From contig JASGUC010000027.1 in assembly GCA_030057915.1 (NCBI GenBank), forward strand, positions 1 to 64,000: DNA of 64,000 nt, in the 5' to 3' direction. This document shows, piece by piece, positions 12,525-57,892 of this stretch; position 1 is the first letter of the stretch, and each line of letters begins with the position of its first letter. Made by a program: the position numbers and the translations under genes. Origin of the DNA: Pseudomonadota bacterium (lineage in GTDB: Bacteria > Desulfobacterota > Syntrophia > Syntrophales > UBA8958). The notes under the pieces are model-generated. The model saw only the letters and a list, made by a program, of their open reading frames with translations. It was not told where the DNA came from and did no database searches.

Positions 12525-13000
12525 TGGGCCATCCATAGGCGGACCTTCCGCCCTTCCACCGGGCGGCCCCCGGGAAGGACGAAAGCGGCAGCGGCTCCTT
12601 CGACCTCCCCCGCGTCGTCATCGCCTCCTCCCTGAAGACCCGGGAGGCGGGGCGTCGCGACGGCCCCCAAGGGGCCTCCGCATTGTCGCCACGGTCGCCA
12701 CGGAAGAAAAGAGACCCCGGGGAGGCGCTCGCCACATCCGGAGACCTTCGATAACCCCGCCTTCCCGGCATCCGAACGGGACGAAAAACATGGTCCGAGA
12801 CCTTTGAAAATCCGCGCCTTCCTGTCGTCCCGTCAATGGCCGGTCGCGAGAACACCTTGAAAACAAGTTATTCCAGACTTGGCCGGCATGACGACAGGTG
12901 GCCCGAGGCGGCGTTTCTCAAAGGTCTCGGTCTGGGAATAGTTCCGGCCCGTCAGCGCTGGTTTTGCAAAGGTCTCGCCCGGACGGCGCCGGGTGAGGCT
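12525..13000. other. Intergenic stretch with repeat-family-A sequences
   Basis: No gene was recognised. The left half is GC-rich and featureless. The right half holds a complete family A element (12797-12928, listed separately) and an isolated A-type end, TTTTGCAAAGGTCTC, at 12962-12976. The convergent genes on either side end here, so the stretch may also act as a transcription-termination zone, though no U-tract hairpin was found. Confidence 0.6.
12797..12928. repeat. Family A inverted-repeat element, copy 1
   Basis: The 132-bp unit begins GAGACCTTTGAAAATCCGCG and ends GCGTTTCTCAAAGGTCTC, so the ends are imperfect inverted repeats of about 18 bases. A second inverted pair lies inside (CCTGTCGTC near the left, GACGACAGG near the right). 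Size and terminal structure match the other family A units at 33557, 38456 and 38741. No open frame of interest is present. Confidence 0.75.
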
Positions 13001-14458: not shown

Positions 14459-14521
14459 ATTTTGTCATTTCGACCGACCATTTTGTCATTTCGACCGACC
14501 ATTTTGTCATTTCGACCGAAG
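14459..14521. repeat. Three tandem 21-bp units of family B left end
   Basis: The unit ATTTTGTCATTTCGACCGACC occurs at 14459-14479 and 14480-14500, and a third begins at 14501 but runs on into the full family B sequence (CGACCGAAGGGAGAAAT). The two complete copies are identical, which points to recent slippage or duplication of the module end. They lie just upstream of the Nudix start and may overlap its promoter. Confidence 0.85.
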
Positions 14522-14642
14522 GGAGAAATTCATGTCCCGAATGCCAGGAGGGATCTTAGGATTTCTCAGTCGCTTCGCTCCTTCGAAATGACATCTGGGT
14601 ACGCTCGCGCTCCTCGAAAGGACATTTTTCAAAGGTCTCCTC
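14501..14642. repeat. Family B palindromic module with a family A right end
   Basis: The left arm GTCATTTCGACCGAAGGGAG near 14505 pairs with an arm ending CCTTCGAAATGAC near 14590. Between them lies ATCTTAGGATTTCTCAGTCGC, also found at 53052 onward. The unit continues to ATTTTTCAAAGGTCTCC, the right end of family A (14627-14642). A closely similar segment is present at 53008-53108. It fills the gap between the Nudix gene and the NRDE stop codon. Confidence 0.75.
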
Positions 14643-16191: not shown

Positions 16192-16351
16192 CGGGGCTCT
16201 CCTCAAAAAAGGCATTGGCAACCACTTTTGGTTTACGATACACCATCTTCCGGGAAAATCAAAGGACGATGTTGAAGTCCCCGCGGGCGCTATATTAGAA
16301 TACCTGCCGGCTCTCGATCCCATGAGACGGCAAAACATGGACAACCCGCTT

Positions 16352-16378
16352 TGTCATTTCGACCGAAGGGAGAAATCC
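16352..16378 (+). repeat. Family B repeat, single arm
   Basis: TGTCATTTCGACCGAAGGGA followed by GAAATCC, one unpaired copy of the family B arm. It lies upstream of the diadenylate cyclase promoter. The same sequence occurs in inverse orientation at 18002-18028, so copies flank the cyclase gene. Confidence 0.85.
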
Positions 16379-16400
16379 TTGAAGGTCGCTCGGAAGGGCC

Positions 16401-33556: not shown

Positions 33557-33689
33557 GAGACCCTTGCGAAACCCCGCCGTGTCCTCCCCATGGTCCCTCC
33601 CGGGAAGGTGGGAATCCAGTGTCTTCAACGATTTTCCGCATGCCGGCTTAAGCCCGACAGGGCATGGGCGGCAGTTTTTCAAAGGTCTC
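33557..33689. repeat. Family A element, reference full copy
   Basis: It begins GAGACCCTTGCGAAACCCCG and ends CAGTTTTTCAAAGGTCTC. The internal 95 bases (GGTGGGAATCCAGTGTCTTC, AACGATTTTCCGCATGCC, AGCCCGACAGGGCATGGGCG) match those at 38741-38872 nearly base for base with only scattered differences, showing a mobile or recombining unit rather than chance similarity. It lies directly upstream of the HD-domain gene. Confidence 0.85.
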
Positions 33690-33751
33690 AAGGATCGGCG
33701 ACAGGAGAGACACCCCGATTCCCAGAGACTAAAAAATGGCCGGCAGGCGCG

Positions 33752-34699
33752 ATGAGCGATCTTGACAAGCAATTGGCCAACCTTCTGAGTACCGAGGACC
33801 ACCAGGCCGTTTATGAAGAAATCAGGGCCATTGTGCTCTTGATCTTTCCCCGGTTCGACTTCGTCCATTTCGAGCGCGCCTGGGATGACATCGTCCGGCT
33901 CTTCCAAGGCAAGTATCCTCATTTCCTTCACTCCGACCTGAAATACCACGATTTGACCCACACCGTGGCGGTCACCCTCGCCGTGGCCCGACTGCTGCAC
34001 GGGGCCGTCGTGGCCGGCCATTCCTTTACGGAAAAGGATGTGAACATGGGACTGATCAGCGGGCTCATGCACGATGCCGGCTACATCAAGAGAGAGGACG
34101 ACGCCGAGGGAACTGGGGCCAAATATACCCTGGTCCATATCGAAAGAAGCATCTCCTTCCTGAAGGATTATTACCGCGACGATCCCTTGTTCAAGAACGA
34201 TCTCTCCACGTTTCAGGACATCCTCCGCTGCACCGGACTCAACACCAATATCGCCGGGATGCGTTTCCGCAGCGAAACGGCGGCCCTGCTCGGGAAAATA
34301 CTCGGCACGGCGGACCTCTTGGGGCAGATGGCCGAGCGCCATTACCTGGAGAAACTCCTCGATCTGTACAACGAGTTCGTGGAGGGCGGCATAAGGTCCT
34401 TCACGAGCCAGTTGGATCTCTTGGAGAAGACCCGGGATTTCTACGATATGACCCGGCGCCGCTTCACGGAAGAACTGGGAGGTGTCTATCGTTTTTCCCT
34501 CTTTCATTTTCGGACGCGCTGGGGCATCGACGAGGACCTCTACCTAAAGGCCATCGGCAACAACATTGCCTATCTCGATCGCATCCTCACGCGCTACGGC
34601 GAGGGCTGCCGATCCCACCTGAGGCGGAAGAAATATGGGCCGCCGTCTCCAGAGGAACGGATACCCCGGGGGCCGGGGGGACCAAGCGAGGAACGATGA
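33752..34699 (+). CDS. HD-domain (cyclic-nucleotide phosphodiesterase-like) protein
   Basis: Predicted metal-dependent phosphohydrolase. The 315-residue protein has the HD pattern: His in KYHDLTHTVAV, HD in LISGLMHDAGYI, and a later candidate Asp in GTADLLGQMA. The YHDLTHT segment is reminiscent of class I cyclic-nucleotide phosphodiesterases (YHNxxHA) rather than HD-GYP, and no GYP motif is present. A charged Pro/Arg tail ends the protein. The chosen ATG at 33752 leaves out an upstream extension that crosses a repeat. It overlaps the next gene by four bases (ATGA), so the two are cotranslated. Substrate unknown. Confidence 0.78.
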   Translation: MSDLDKQLANLLSTEDHQAVYEEIRAIVLLIFPRFDFVHFERAWDDIVRLFQGKYPHFLHSDLKYHDLTHTVAVTLAVARLLHGAVVAGHSFTEKDVNMGLISGLMHDAGYIKREDDAEGTGAKYTLVHIERSISFLKDYYRDDPLFKNDLSTFQDILRCTGLNTNIAGMRFRSETAALLGKILGTADLLGQMAERHYLEKLLDLYNEFVEGGIRSFTSQLDLLEKTRDFYDMTRRRFTEELGGVYRFSLFHFRTRWGIDEDLYLKAIGNNIAYLDRILTRYGEGCRSHLRRKKYGPPSPEERIPRGPGGPSEER

Positions 34700-35133
34700 T
34701 CTATCATACCTTCCTTTTCGATGAGAATATCTGGATCGCCGCCGGGGTTTACATCGATGGCCACGGTCGTTTACATTCCGTGAGGGGGGAAATCAGGATC
34801 GTCCATGAGGAAGCCTTATGGATCCACGAATCCCGGATGAGTCTGGAGGACAATCCCGCCGTGGAATTCGTAAGCCGCAGCGAAATCCTGCCCATGGACA
34901 GGAAGCGGGAATGGACGAGCTGGTCCTCGGAGAATCCCGCCCTGGGAAGGCTGGCGGGAAGGTTTGTCTTGGTTGACGATTCCATTCTGTCGTCCTGCGT
35001 TTCGACAGACGGCTCGGTTCAGGGGGTGGAATGCCTGAAAATGATCGAGGACGATCTATACTGGCATCGGGGATGCCTCTTCCAGGGAGATAAAAAGCTA
35101 TCCTCCTGGGCGGTGGATCTCCGGAGAAGGTAG
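34696..35133 (+). CDS. Hypothetical protein coupled to the HD-domain gene
   Basis: I do not recognise this 145-residue protein. It is soluble, with no signal peptide or membrane helix. It reads as mostly beta-strand with paired aromatic residues (MIYHTFLFDENIWIAAGVYI, ALWIHESRMS, WTSWSSEN, LYWHRGCLFQGDKKLSSWAVDL), a layout that could fit a calycin-like or other small barrel fold. The start ATG overlaps the HD-gene stop, which suggests a functional link, perhaps as ligand sensor or product-binding partner. An ArgArg-rich C-terminus ends it. Confidence 0.65.
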   Translation: MIYHTFLFDENIWIAAGVYIDGHGRLHSVRGEIRIVHEEALWIHESRMSLEDNPAVEFVSRSEILPMDRKREWTSWSSENPALGRLAGRFVLVDDSILSSCVSTDGSVQGVECLKMIEDDLYWHRGCLFQGDKKLSSWAVDLRRR

Positions 35134-35231
35134 CGACCGGGTCTCCTTATCTAGCGTGGCCACCGGGGCCTCCCCTCCCGCCGCGTCTTTCGCCACCGCA
35201 CGGTCCCTCGGAGCGACGCCGGGCGCCCGTC

Positions 35232-36962
35232 TCAGTCCGCAAAAAGCGGCACAAAAGCGAATTTATTCACATCCACCAGCCCCCGGTCCGTCAGCTTCAG
35301 TTCGGGGATGACGGGAAGGGCGAGGAAAGACAGGTGCATGAAAGGTTCGCTGAGACGGCATCCCAATTGCTGGGCCCGGTAGCGGATCTCTTCCCAGACG
35401 CCGGCCGTTTCCGCCAGCGGCCGGTCCGACATCAAGCCGCCAATGGGGAGCGGCAGCCGGGCAACGATGCGCCCGTCACAGGCGATGGCCAGTCCTCCCT
35501 TCATCTCTTCCACCGCCCGGACCGCGGCGGTCATGTCGAGGTCCGTACAACCCACGGAGATGATATTATGGGAATCGTGGGCCACGGAGGCGGCCAGGGC
35601 CCCCTCCCGGAGGGAAAAGCCCCGAACGAGCGCCACGGCGATGTTGCCCGTCCCGCGGTGCCGTTCAACCACGGCGAGTTTCAAGATGTCCCCTTGCAGG
35701 TCCGGAACGACCAGCCCGTTTTGGATCTTGACGGGGAGCTTCACCTTTCTCGTCAAGATCTGGTCCGGAATCAGATCGATCACCAGGGCCTGCCTCCCCA
35801 GTGCCGGCAGCGCGAAGGCCTCCGCCTCGTAAGGCTTGACATTCATGGAGGACAACCCGGCCGGCAGGTCAGCGGCGGGGATGTCAACGGCCAGCTCTCC
35901 CCTATCGACCACATGCCGCCCGTCCTTGAAGACATGGCGCACCCGCACGGGGTCCAGGGAGGACAGCAACACCAGGTCGGCCCGATAACCCGGGGCTACG
36001 GCGCCCCGGTCCGCAAGGGAAAAATACCGGGCGGTGTTGAGGGTGACCATGGCGATGGCCCATAGGGGCGGCAAGCCCATCTCGATGGCCAGACTCATGA
36101 CCGCATCCAGATGGCCGTGACGAAGGATGTCGTGGGGATGGAGATCGTCGGTCACCAGAGAACACCGCGGTAGCGTGACGGCGTCGACCAGCGGCAGGAG
36201 CGCGGCGAGGTTCTTGGCTTGAGTGCCCTCGCGGATCATGATCCGCATCCCCAGACGGAGCTTTTCCCGAGCCTCCGCCAATTGGGTGCACTCGTGATCG
36301 GAACGGATTCCGGCGACGATATAGGCGTTGAGGTCTTTCCCCGACAGCAGCGGGGCATGACCATCCACAACGGCGTCCTGGAAGGCGGCCAGTTTGGCCA
36401 GGACGACGGGGTCTCGATGCAGGACCCCCGGAAAGTTCATCATCTCCGCCAGGCCGAGAACCCTTCCTTCCCCCCGCAAAGCGGCTAGCTCTTCCACCGT
36501 GAGGTTAGCCCCGGAGGTCTCCAGGTGCGTCGCCGGCACGCAGGAGGGCGCCATGAGAAAGAAGTCCACGGGCAAACCCTCGCTGTCCTGAAGGAGGTAG
36601 CGCAGACCCCGGAGCCCCAGGACGTTGGCGATTTCATGAGGGTCGGCGATGATGGCCGTCGTTCCCCGGGGGAGGACCGCCCTGGCCAATTCGCGAGGGG
36701 AAAGCATGGAACTTTCGAGATGGAAATGACCGTCGATGAATCCCGGGGTCACATAATAATCCGCGGCATCCAGACAGCGGGGGCCATCGTATTTTCCCAG
36801 CCCGACAATCACGCCGTCGAAGAGGGCCACATCCGTCCGGACGAATTCTCTGGTGAACAGATCGGCCACCAAGCCGTTTTTCAGGACCAGGTCCGGCGCG
36901 GCCTCTCCCCGGGCGACCCCGATCCGTGCGGCGATCCTTTCCACGGCGCCGGCGGCGGTCAT
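35232..36962 (-). CDS. ade: Adenine deaminase
   Basis: Converts adenine to hypoxanthine in purine salvage; member of the amidohydrolase superfamily. The 576 residues show the metal-binding GFIDGHFHLESSML, ADPHEIANVLG, DGHAPLL with another His, and LVTDDLHPHD, plus the C-terminal adenine-deaminase-specific region with VAHDSHNIISVGCTD. The length matches the family. The start at 36962 follows CAGGAG; the open frame extends upstream to 37178, but with unlike composition. It stands alone; no permease or phosphoribosyltransferase is adjacent. Confidence 0.93.
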   Translation of the reverse strand: MTAAGAVERIAARIGVARGEAAPDLVLKNGLVADLFTREFVRTDVALFDGVIVGLGKYDGPRCLDAADYYVTPGFIDGHFHLESSMLSPRELARAVLPRGTTAIIADPHEIANVLGLRGLRYLLQDSEGLPVDFFLMAPSCVPATHLETSGANLTVEELAALRGEGRVLGLAEMMNFPGVLHRDPVVLAKLAAFQDAVVDGHAPLLSGKDLNAYIVAGIRSDHECTQLAEAREKLRLGMRIMIREGTQAKNLAALLPLVDAVTLPRCSLVTDDLHPHDILRHGHLDAVMSLAIEMGLPPLWAIAMVTLNTARYFSLADRGAVAPGYRADLVLLSSLDPVRVRHVFKDGRHVVDRGELAVDIPAADLPAGLSSMNVKPYEAEAFALPALGRQALVIDLIPDQILTRKVKLPVKIQNGLVVPDLQGDILKLAVVERHRGTGNIAVALVRGFSLREGALAASVAHDSHNIISVGCTDLDMTAAVRAVEEMKGGLAIACDGRIVARLPLPIGGLMSDRPLAETAGVWEEIRYRAQQLGCRLSEPFMHLSFLALPVIPELKLTDRGLVDVNKFAFVPLFAD

Positions 36963-37396
36963 GGCGTCAAGACTCCTGCCGCCCCGCGCCGGACAGCGCC
37001 CCTCATGGCGGCGGCCTCCCCCTCCCCCGCTGCCCGGCCTTGCCTCTTGGAGACGCTGGCGACAAAACCGCGCCACGATCCTCCTCGCGGGTCTCCACCA
37101 AGGACGCCCCCGCCTGGGGCTGCCCCAGGAAAGGATGATAATAGCCAGACCGTTACATTCATTTTTTCCAAGAGTCACCTTACGGAATCACGCCCACCCC
37201 GGCGTCCATCGCTATCGTCTCAAAAACCATCCCGACGACGCTCCCGCCATGGACAGCGCCGCCGCCCACCACGGAGACGGTCGCGACGGCGGGACGCAGA
37301 TACTTGCAAGAATCGCAACCTTCGACGCGGCGGCGTTTCGCGGCGGCGCCCGGTGGCGGCGAAAGGCGAGTGTTGTCATCCCTCCCCGGCCCTCGT
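36963..37396. other. Intergenic stretch upstream of adenine deaminase
   Basis: About 430 GC-rich bases without a recognised gene, promoter pair or repeat from the families seen elsewhere. Several open frames cross it, but none resembles a protein family. Confidence 0.5.
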
Positions 37397-38377
37397 TCAT
37401 CGCGTCCCCACCACATCACGGATAATGGGCATCATCAAGGCCACGGCCCTGCGTCCTTCCTCGATCGCCTCCGATGCCCGATTGAATTCCAGAAGACCGA
37501 TTTGGGCCAGCCGGGGGCGTATCAGCACCTCCGGGGGGTCCGCCGCCAGTCTATGCCGGGTGATCTGATCCTGCATGATATATACCGACGTGGCAATGAC
37601 CTCGAAGAGGGTCGGTCCGCGACTGGGCTGGTTCTGGGCGTAGCGCTTGAAGACGGATGCCTGTCCCGCCTTGAGTTTGCCGTTGAAGAATGCCGCGAGT
37701 CGTTTGGGAAGATACTGGTCGTTCACCTCCGCCTTCGGTTCCTCTTCCCCGTTGCGATCCTGACGGTTGAAGCTCCGGCCCATGATGTCGTTGTTGAGAT
37801 CCACGGCGATGACGATGTCGGCCCCCATGGCCCGACAGAGTGACACCGGCACTGGATTGACGAGACCGCCGTCCACGAGCCAGCCCTCCCTACCGGGGAA
37901 AGGGGTCAGAATCCCCGGCATGGACATGCTGGCCCGAATGGCGTCCATGAGCGACCCTTCCCTGATCCATACCTCCCGGCCGGACTTCAGCTCGGTGGTG
38001 ACGGCGGCATAGGGCATGGGCAGGTCCTCGATATGAGAGTCGGAGATGTTTTCCCGGAAATAGCGGATAAGCTTGTCGCCTTCAATGAGGCCCGAACGGG
38101 GGAGACGCACATCCATGAAGCCCAGGATATCGGGCCAGGTCAAGCCCCGGACCCATTCGTCCATGACCTCGATGAAGCCGGCGGCGAAAGCCCCGGCCAC
38201 CATGGCGCCCATGGAGGCACCGCAGACCAGTTCGATCTTTATCCCCGCTTCCTGCAATCCCTCGATCACCCCGATATGAGACCAGCCCCGTGCGGAGCCG
38301 CTCCCCAAGGCCAGGCCGATACGCTTCGGCGGCGGCGGAAAAACGTCCGCTGGCCTCTCCGTCGCGGTTCTTTTCAT
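37397..38377 (-). CDS. Patatin-like phospholipase, RssA/NTE type
   Basis: Ser-Asp dyad lipid hydrolase of 326 residues, cytoplasmic or peripherally bound. The oxyanion region is GSGSARGWSHIGV rather than the more usual GGGxRG; the nucleophile elbow is CGASMGAMV with Ser55, and the catalytic Asp is in the WLVDGGLVNPVPV block. The later PRLAQIGLLEFNRASEAIEEGRRA region is typical of RssA-like proteins. It has no signal peptide. Its role is probably in phospholipid or fatty acid turnover, but no partner gene is adjacent; the upstream region is a dense repeat array. Confidence 0.9.
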   Translation of the reverse strand: MKRTATERPADVFPPPPKRIGLALGSGSARGWSHIGVIEGLQEAGIKIELVCGASMGAMVAGAFAAGFIEVMDEWVRGLTWPDILGFMDVRLPRSGLIEGDKLIRYFRENISDSHIEDLPMPYAAVTTELKSGREVWIREGSLMDAIRASMSMPGILTPFPGREGWLVDGGLVNPVPVSLCRAMGADIVIAVDLNNDIMGRSFNRQDRNGEEEPKAEVNDQYLPKRLAAFFNGKLKAGQASVFKRYAQNQPSRGPTLFEVIATSVYIMQDQITRHRLAADPPEVLIRPRLAQIGLLEFNRASEAIEEGRRAVALMMPIIRDVVGTR

Positions 38378-38412
38378 CCCGATGCCCCTCCCAGGGCAAA
38401 TTCATTCTGCTT

Positions 38413-38440
38413 GAAATTGGCCGAAAATAGCGGGTTTCCC
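38413..38440 (+). repeat. Family C repeat, copy 1
   Basis: GAAATTGGCCGAAAATAGCG then GGTTTCCC. A near-identical copy is at 55970-55997 with one internal base different, and an inverse relative occurs at 53965-53991. It borders the family A array on its left. Confidence 0.7.
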
Positions 38441-38455
38441 ATTGTTTGCAGTCAC

Positions 38456-38587
38456 GGGGCCTTTGAAAAACGACCATTTCCCGCCGTCCCGGCATAATCC
38501 GGGCTCGGGAAAACCTCGAAAACAAAGCCTTCCGGCTTCCGCCGGCATGACGACAGGAACTCGGAAACGGCGGTTCTCAAAGGTCTC
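38456..38587. repeat. Family A-related element, array unit 1
   Basis: The left end GGGGCCTTTGAAAAACGACC and right end CGGCGGTTCTCAAAGGTCTC bound about 132 bases. The interior includes GCCGGCATGACGACAGG, as in the unit at 12797-12928. Two further A-type units follow directly, so 38456-38872 is an array. Confidence 0.7.
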
Positions 38588-38593
38588 AGTCGC

Positions 38594-38740
38594 GGGGCCT
38601 TTGAAAAACGATCTATCTTGTCATGCCGGGCTTGACCCGGCATCCATAAGCTACCTGAAAACAGAGGGCTTTCACCTCTCAAAACGCGCCTGTTCCCAGA
38701 CGCACGGATTCCCGTTTTCGCGAGAATGACGAGACGCATG
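38594..38740. repeat. Family A-related element, array unit 2
   Basis: Begins GGGGCCTTTGAAAAACGATC and continues TCATGCCGGGCTTGACCCGG, a sequence also found in variant form at 53170, 53300 and 57685. Its right part (ATTCCCGTTTTCGCGAGAAT) differs from the other units and the right A end is missing, so this unit looks truncated or recombined. Confidence 0.55.
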
Positions 38741-38872
38741 GAGACCTTTGCAAAAACCCGCTGTACCCTCCCATGGTTCCTCCCGGGAAAGTGGGAAGCC
38801 AGTGTCCTCAACGATTTTCCGGATGCCAGCTCTAGCCCGACAGGGCTTGGGCGGCGGTCTTTCAAAGGACTC
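38741..38872. repeat. Family A element, array unit 3, homologous to 33557-33689
   Basis: Starts GAGACCTTTGCAAAAACCCG, ends GTCTTTCAAAGGACTC. Interior blocks CTCCCGGGAAAGTGGGAAGC, CAACGATTTTCCGGATGCC and AGCCCGACAGGGCTTGGGCG match the 33557 copy in the same order and spacing. Confidence 0.85.
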
Positions 38873-38988
38873 GTCCCAGGCAATCAGGCGCCTGCCGGAG
38901 GAACGAATCCACCCCGATGCCCCTTACTGGGGCAGTTTTCCTAACATACAAACAACCGTATGGGAAGGAGAGTTTTTTAAATTCCTCG

Positions 38989-52488: not shown

Positions 52489-52980
52489 CGTCTCCAATCT
52501 CCTTCGGACCCCTGCCTTCCACGGCATTTAGAGGCGGATGGGAAGCGGGTTCCGCCGATTGCGAAAATTCCCGGAGGGTCGCAATTTCCGTCGCCTCGTC
52601 ATACAAGGCGACGCCTCCGCCCGACACGCCCCGACGGTCATGGCCCAGAATCCCCAGCAGGAGTTCAGGAATGCCCTGGGCCTCCACTCTATATTCCCCC
52701 GAGCGAACGGCGGAATATTAAACTATTTCTCCCCCCATGTAAACACGAGAAATCTCCGGCGGGATCAATTCCGCTTCTTGTCATTTCTACCGATTTCTTG
52801 TAATTTCGACCGAAGGGAGAAATCTTTAACAATCTGCCATGACGAATTCGGGCTCAAACCGCCGACCGGCGGTTTAGATAAAGAAGGGGACTCTCAGGAA
52901 TGGACTTCCCGCGCCTTGACTCGGGGAAGGACCCACGGAAAAGAAAAACCCGCTGTCAGCAGCAGGCTTGACGTTACCTT
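52489..52980. other. Repeat-bearing intergenic stretch upstream of the FabK-like gene
   Basis: No gene was recognised. It includes a family B pair: TGTCATTTCTACCGATTTCT at 52780 runs into TGTAATTTCGACCGAAGGGA at 52800, followed by GAAATCTTTAACAATCTGCC to 52842. The same tail follows the family B arm at 53215-53257. The rest, up to the composite element at 52981, has no visible structure. Confidence 0.6.
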
Positions 52981-53108
52981 GAGACCTTTGAATAACCGCC
53001 ATTTTTGTCATTTCGACCAAAGGGAGAAATCCATGTCCGAATGCCATGAGGGCTCTTAGGATTTCTCAGTCGCTTCGCTCCTTCGAAATGACATTTTTCA
53101 AAGGTCTC
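52981..53108. repeat. Composite element: family A ends around a family B hairpin
   Basis: Starts GAGACCTTTGAATAACCGCC and ends ACATTTTTCAAAGGTCTC, the two A ends. Inside, TGTCATTTCGACCAAAGGGA pairs with the arm ending CTTCGAAATGACA, around the core TCTTAGGATTTCTCAGTCGC. It is the complete version of the partial copy at 14501-14642 and shows that A and B modules move as one unit. Confidence 0.8.
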
Positions 53109-53357
53109 ACCTTGAATGACGATGGGGCGCCAAATGGAGACCTTTGGGAACGCCGCTTCAGATGCCCTGTCAGGCTTGGCCCGGCATCCAGAGAATACTC
53201 GCAGACCCGTTTCTTGTCATTTCGACCGAAGGGAGAAATCTTTAACAATCTGCCATCATTAGGATTTCCCCGAGACCTTCGAAATTCCGCCGCCCATGTC
53301 CTGTCAGGCTTGGCCCGGCATCCAGAAATATGGGTTTCCCCGGGGGCCTTGGATAAT
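53109..53357. repeat. Truncated family A and B fragments upstream of the ssrA terminator
   Basis: Two left-end A fragments begin at 53137 (GAGACCTTTGGGAACGCCGC) and 53272 (GAGACCTTCGAAATTCCGCC); both run on into TGTCAGGCTTGGCCCGGCATCCAGA. Between them is a family B arm at 53215-53257. Neither A fragment has its right end. The layout suggests serial insertion and recombination rather than one element. Confidence 0.7.
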
Positions 53358-53392
53358 GAAAAAGAAAAAACCCGCTAATTCTGGCGGGTTTT
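53358..53392 (-). terminator. Intrinsic terminator of ssrA
   Basis: On the minus strand AACCCGC (53390-53384) pairs with GCGGGTT (53375-53369) around an 8-base loop, flanked by A and T tracts, and is followed by TTTTTTCTTT. It lies 32 bases beyond the tmRNA 3' end. A textbook Rho-independent terminator. Confidence 0.9.
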
Positions 53393-53423: not shown

Positions 53424-53777
53424 TGGTGGAGGCGGGGGGAATCGAACCCCCGTCCGGAAATATTCCACTGCAGGTTCTTCGTGCGGAGCCTCTGATTTTC
53501 TTTCGCCGGCGCTCCCTCCCAAAGGCAGGATGGAACGTGACTATCCTGAGTCGATTCGCCTCCCCCCCTCCAGGCCCGAGAGTTTGGCTATCCCACCTGT
53601 ATTGCGCCCTGTCCGACCCGGCGGGCATGACCGGCAGAACGTTAGCCGTCTTACGCGGCTAAGGCGTATTCGTAGTCGTTTGCGACTATTTTTTTCCTAC
53701 CTGTTTAACGAGGCCTGTAGGAACCTCGGCACGCTGCTACAGCTTCAACTATCCCCGTCGAAACCATTACGCCCCCA
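53424..53777 (-). ncRNA. ssrA: Transfer-messenger RNA (tmRNA)
   Basis: Rescues stalled ribosomes together with SmpB. The minus-strand 5' end GGGGGCGTAATGGTTTCGAC and the 3' end GGGGTTCGATTCCCCCCGCC plus TCCACCA are the conserved tRNA-like half. The acceptor stem forms GGGGGCG with CGCCTCC, with a discriminator A and an encoded CCA at 53426-53424. The tag frame is at 53683-53651, encoding ANDYEYALAA then TAA, with the resume codon GCA after AATAGTC. Total length is 354. The gene is not permuted into two pieces. smpB is encoded nearby on the same strand. Confidence 0.97.
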
Positions 53778-53872: not shown

Positions 53873-53964
53873 GGCCAAAGAGCGACCCTCGAAAGACGAC
53901 CTGTCCTGTCATGCCGGTGTTGACCCGCCATCCAGAGGATGCTTGAAAACACTGGGAAAAATGT

Positions 53965-53991
53965 GGAACCCGCCCTTTTCGGCCAATTTCT
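53965..53991 (-). repeat. Family C repeat, inverse copy
   Basis: On the minus strand it reads GAAATTGGCCGAAAAGGGCG then GGTTCC, matching the direct copies at 38413 and 55970 except for a few bases. It lies between the STAS gene and the ssrA promoter. Confidence 0.6.
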
Positions 53992-54040
53992 GGCAGGGCA
54001 ACTTTACCCTGGGGGATGTCTTGGGATTGGCAAGGGCCGA

Positions 54041-55711: not shown

Positions 55712-57459
<1,748 letters not shown>

Positions 57460-57649: not shown

Positions 57650-57892
57650 GAGACCTTTGAAAAACCGCCGCCCATGCCCTGGCGGGCTTGACCCGACATC
57701 CAGAAAATCGTCGAAGACACGGGATTCCCGCTTTCCCGGTTAGGACCGACGAGAAATCCTAGGAGGCCGCGCTTCCTCAGTGGATCGTCGTTCCTCTGAA
57801 AAATGTCATTTCGAGGAGCGCGAGCGACGAGGAATCCTATGAGGCTGCGCTTCCTCGATGGGGAGGGCACAACGGGGTTTTGCCAAGGTCTC
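57650..57892. repeat. Family A element interrupted by a nested family B module
   Basis: The left part (57650-57741) is the inverse of the 33557 copy: GAGACCTTTGAAAAACCGCC, then ATGCCCTGGCGGGCTTGACC, AGAAAATCGTCGAAGACACG and GGATTCCCGCTTTCCCGG. The right part (57859-57892) resumes with GGGGAGGGCACAACGGGGTT and ends CCAAGGTCTC. In between lie about 117 bases containing GTCATTTCGAGGAGCGCGAG and two near-identical CCTA.GAGGC.GCGCTTCCTC sequences (57767, 57838), a B-type module with direct repeats. Confidence 0.75.

Follow-up and report, generated by a model that had tools for sequence, protein, structure and literature searches.

An intergenic family of short elements with ISNme1-type inverted ends in a Syntrophales genome, very probably non-autonomous IS5-type MITEs

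Several short repeats without a transposase have been connected to insertion sequences of the IS5 family. The AT-rich repeat (ATR) of Neisseria meningitidis has been proposed to be a MITE of ISNme1, an IS5-family element with the published ends GAGACCTTTGCAAAA and TTTTGCAAAGGTCTC (PMC4596501). BrickBuilt and MITEPgRS of Porphyromonas gingivalis are likewise non-autonomous and have IS5-type ends, such as GAGACCTTTGCA in BrickBuilt copies (PMC4596501). The units described in this work resemble ATR in their ISNme1-type terminal inverted repeats, the lack of a transposase and the proposed IS5 parent, but they occur in another host, have a different interior whose hairpin core is G+C-rich, measure 121-135 bp, and are by our estimate ten times more numerous than the 19 copies reported for ATR. 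With BrickBuilt and MITEPgRS they share IS5-type ends, whereas BrickBuilt has a 23-nt minisatellite and the duplications reported in P. gingivalis were irregular in length. The ends of the units are also those of ISNme1 and of its relatives in the IS5 family (NCBIfam NF033581), and an IS5 relative from the same order (in L244) combines such ends with a 5-bp duplication, as the units do; unlike these elements, the units of the analysed stretch contain no transposase.

The window, that is, the whole stretch of 64,000 nucleotides that was analysed, contains five complete units of 128-133 bp and one unit interrupted by an insertion. All complete units are intergenic, and those for which the first-pass annotation had given coordinates lie where it had placed them. 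Two complete units on the plus strand belong to subfamily A, at 33557-33689 (133 bp, flanked by the 5-bp duplication AAGGA/AAGGA) and at 38741-38872 (132 bp, no recognisable duplication); they had been described as alike over their full length, and indeed are 86% identical throughout. The units at 12797-12928 (flanks GGTCC/GGTCT, four of five bases equal) and 38456-38587, both of 132 bp and on the plus strand, had been said to share ends and size, and they form a second subfamily, B, with a mutual identity of 72%. As a small correction, the 38456 unit opens with GGGGCC and not with GAGACC. Subfamily C is represented by a plus-strand unit of 128 bp at 52981-53108, with the duplication ACCTT/ACCTT. 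Nested and interrupted units occur: the 12797 unit apparently lies inside an older unit at 12741-12976, and on the minus strand a subfamily A unit at 57650-57892, with enolase and a convergent acyltransferase gene one on either side, is broken by a REP-like sequence of about 110 bp. Incomplete units, all on the plus strand, were found at 38594-38740, with a single recognisable end and a GTCATGCCGGGCTTGACCCGGCATCC hairpin, its right end having been lost beside the 38741 unit, and at 53137-53364, where left ends of partial units are located at 53137 and 53272. In units of the 33557 type, only the right end is the inverse of the 20-base end quoted in the first-pass annotation; the consensus left end of that type is GAGACCTTTGCAAAACCCCG. 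With up to three mismatches this 20-base end had nine matches in the window, against none in 100 shuffles, and five pairs of inverted ends spaced 110-140 bp apart (at 12797, 33557, 38456, 38741 and 52981) were found against none in 30 simulated windows.

Other repeats are present in the same stretch. The sequence of about 110 bp within the interrupted unit (57748-57860), with GACGAGAAATCC and TGTCATTTCGAGGAGCGCGAGCGACGAGGAATCCT hairpins, is a separate REP-like repeat having its own borders without IS5-type ends, and a stretch similar to it is located at 56041-56082. Another dispersed repeat, CCCCGATGCCCCTCCCAGGGCA..GAAATTGGCCGAAAATAGCGGGTTTCCC, occupies 38376-38440 and 55945-55997, with a seeming reverse copy at about 53960-54010. 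The stretch 55946-56082 is missing from one congener (G004). The sequence GTCATTTCGACCGAAGGGAGAAATC was also observed as free copies, some of them in short tandem arrays, at 52788-53247, 14473-14537 and 16341-16384. The window also includes a tmRNA gene at 53424-53776 (tag ANDYEYALAA), and the host genome has a Y1_Tnp (RAYT-like) gene at G000:C57:124169.

The host genome is a draft assembly of 2.85 Mb in 64 contigs. Further copies, for which the first-pass annotation had proposed a genome-wide search, are many: BLASTN with the 33557 unit returned at least 40 copies with identities of 78-100%, and exact 15-mer ends were found 172 times genome-wide, against zero for a reversed control pattern. 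Extrapolating from the number of units per exact end, we estimate about 200 complete units, in several subfamilies. We sampled 78 units of 110-140 bp, drawn from 464 kb of the host genome and from search matches; most of the sampled units measure 130-135 bp, and units overall mostly 121-135 bp. They are thus short, multicopy, devoid of a transposase gene and bounded by terminal inverted repeats, GAGACCTTTG(C/A)AAAACC, which match the published ISNme1 ends. Grouping of the interiors at 70% identity yielded subfamily A with 31 units (including 33557 and 38741), subfamily B with 30 (including 12797 and 38456), subfamily C with six (including 52981) and further small groups. Subfamilies A and B are of nearly equal length. 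Since their consensus centres resemble each other when A is read on the opposite strand (TTGAAGACAC / TTGAAAACAC, then ATTCC) and the units of the congener (L347-L349) agree in length and layout, A and B are probably diverged descendants of one ancestor.

Target-site duplications, which had been suggested as a check, have a fixed length of 5 bp. Exact 5-bp duplications flank 22 of the 78 sampled units, against 0.35 expected, and flank positions are equal over five bases in 68% of cases, compared to 30% in shuffles; in the same sample, duplications of other lengths are at or near background. The duplicated sites follow no strict sequence, although G is somewhat favoured at the first position and C at the fifth. 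Moreover, the comparison of empty sites that the first-pass annotation had recommended revealed, for two units, a precise empty site in the congener G004. At L084:2990-3121 the host sequence is GATAGCAA-unit-GGAAAAAGGAGCG and that of G004 is GATAAACAAAGGAGCG, so that the two differ by 132+5 bp; at L084:9875-10047 the host sequence TCATATT-unit-CCATTGGCAACC corresponds to TCCTATTGACCACC in G004, and here they differ by 173+5 bp. In both cases the 5-bp copies on either side of the unit have now diverged from each other, and therefore these insertions are not recent. Two blocks of the window are also missing from G004, namely 38403-38909, with three units, and 52771-53364, which includes the C unit. 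As a 28-bp sequence flanking the former has one copy in G004 and two in the host, the history of this block may partly involve recombination. For the 33557 unit, the congener gene has no unit upstream, and the spacer is too diverged for alignment of an empty site. The idea that congeners are free of the family is contradicted by at least three complete related units in G004 and by remnants in two others (G006 and G002). A draft in 64 contigs might raise the suspicion of an assembly artefact, or the similarity of the units might be due to chance; yet the zero matches expected from shuffles, together with the duplications and the empty sites, refute this explanation, to which we assign next to no probability.

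The interiors of the units contain paired REP-like hairpins, and in this they resemble REPINs and REPs associated with a RAYT. REPINs depend on a RAYT and are not known to make a target duplication; neither 5-bp duplications nor ends of the IS5 type are among their known features. According to the REPIN-like interpretation, which had been put forward alongside the MITE one, a single-strand RAYT (TnpA-REP) would have spread the units by acting on the paired internal hairpins, and two Y1_Tnp (PF01797) matches in the host genome would agree with it, as would the subfamily C hairpin, GTCATTTCGACCGAAGGGAGAAATC, being free of ends in 8 of its 20 copies. However, the cores of A, B and related units nearly always adjoin an end (for example, 25/25 and 27/27), and the borders of the units consist of DDE-type inverted ends followed by the 5-bp duplication. 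The proposed search for a TnpA-REP-like gene sharing the repeats did recover the PF01797 genes, but no unit core is present within about 1.5 kb of them, the only matches there being end-like ones, in L061. For subfamilies A and B the duplications contradict a spread by a RAYT, and overall this reading is considered very unlikely.

It could also be argued that the units are retained as functional intergenic elements, such as terminators, RNAs or protein-binding sites, instead of being parasites. Every complete unit of the window is indeed intergenic, and several units fold better than shuffled sequence (z of -5.0 for 12797 and -5.7 for 52981). The 33557 unit, however, folds no better than shuffles (z of -0.85) and covariation in subfamily A is negligible, with changes on both sides in 2 of 21 pairs and a covariation term of +0.2; because of these two results, the structure of this subfamily gives no sign of selection. 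A structured RNA was rejected in view of this near-nil covariation and of the Rfam search, which had no match for the units and whose sole match was the tmRNA. Considering also that copies are missing at orthologous sites in the congener, retention for a function seems highly improbable.

An autonomous partner within the same genome is usual, though not obligatory, for a MITE derived from IS5/ISNme1. In the 64-contig draft of the host, a profile search found no PF05598 or related transposase and tblastn gave no match for an IS5-type transposase; in a draft of this kind, the assembly step may have dropped an IS present in several copies. Two DDE_Tnp_1 transposases of the host were considered as partners and discarded: one is within an element ending in TTAACCGGACAGGCGTGA, the other is IS1634-like, and neither has the ends of the units. 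The full transposon with common ends that the first-pass annotation had suggested looking for thus exists in relatives, whereas the search of the host did not recover it. One example from the same order, in L244 at positions 630-2052, is an IS5 element of 1423 bp with an ATCAG/ATCAG duplication and an open transposase frame of 353 aa, matching NF033581 at 4e-53. Further IS5 copies from this order with such ends are found in L234, L250 and L243, and the ends of the same-order copies are one to three bases off GAGACCTTTGCAAAA (for example, GAGAGCTTTGCACAA and GAGACCTTTGCACAA). Among the congeners, G006 has a full-length open copy of the transposase gene; its element ends in GAAACCTTTGCATAA and GAGAGCTTTGAATTT, and no duplication can be seen around it. 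G002 and G004 have fragments of IS5 transposases. A plasmid search for a near relative detected no unit, and its transposase matches were only 30-35% identical.

The MITE interpretation of the first-pass annotation is upheld by the copies, the duplications, the empty sites and the ends of the IS5 elements of relatives. We regard it as very probable that the units are non-autonomous IS5-type (ISNme1-like) MITEs, moved in trans by an IS5 transposase that is now undetectable in the host. An IS5-family DDE transposase, of the NCBIfam IS5_4 type, would recognise the 15-20 bp ends and insert the whole unit of about 132 bp at staggered cuts 5 bp apart, which would leave a 5-bp duplication at each site without a strong preference for any target sequence. 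As the units contain no transposase gene, the enzyme would have been supplied in trans. Given that no such transposase is detectable in the host genome today, the family is probably what remains from earlier bursts of an IS that has been lost or has diverged; mobilisation of these copies by a transposase of the IS5/ISNme1 type, since lost from the host, is the most likely history.

Ends of this type are not confined to the host. An exact scan of public genomes found them in Neisseria, Eikenella, Nitrosomonas, Desulfobacterales, Syntrophobacterales, Bacteroidales, Melioribacteraceae, Chloroflexota and others. In N. weixii, an IS5-type IS (L153:2560-3810) is bounded by perfect GAGACCTTTGCAAAACC ends, while its transposase frame is split into two parts. 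Short elements with these ends, from the taxa of the scan and from the same order and thus from several phyla, have exact 5-bp duplications in 35 of 83 cases, against 1.7 expected. In Neisseria, elements that measure 196-197 bp and carry such ends have a hairpin inside, in loci that were selected by their ends, which biases the proportion; we take this hairpin to be dRS3-like. A tentative and rather doubtful extension is that MITEs with ISNme1-type ends form one very widespread class with a uniform 5-bp duplication, spanning Neisseria, Eikenella, Desulfobacterota, Bacteroidota, Chloroflexota and Marinimicrobia, which might be a main carrier of REP-like hairpins between genes, the dRS3-like GTCATTCCCGCG..GCGGGAATCC of Neisseria being a possible example. 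Within the order, the genomes G038 and G014 contain 200 and 74 exact GAGACCTTTGNAAAA ends, respectively, apparently amplified independently and outside the genus, and G014 has at least nine PF05598 matches.

The family itself is new and its kind, the IS5/ISNme1-type MITE, is already well known; its description is of value as a useful annotation and not as a new mechanism. One known mechanism accounts for much of the intergenic repeat content of the host, and the combination of ISNme1-type ends and a 5-bp duplication is seen again in several phyla. That a burst of MITEs has no partner detectable in its own genome suggests an IS that arrived and later disappeared.
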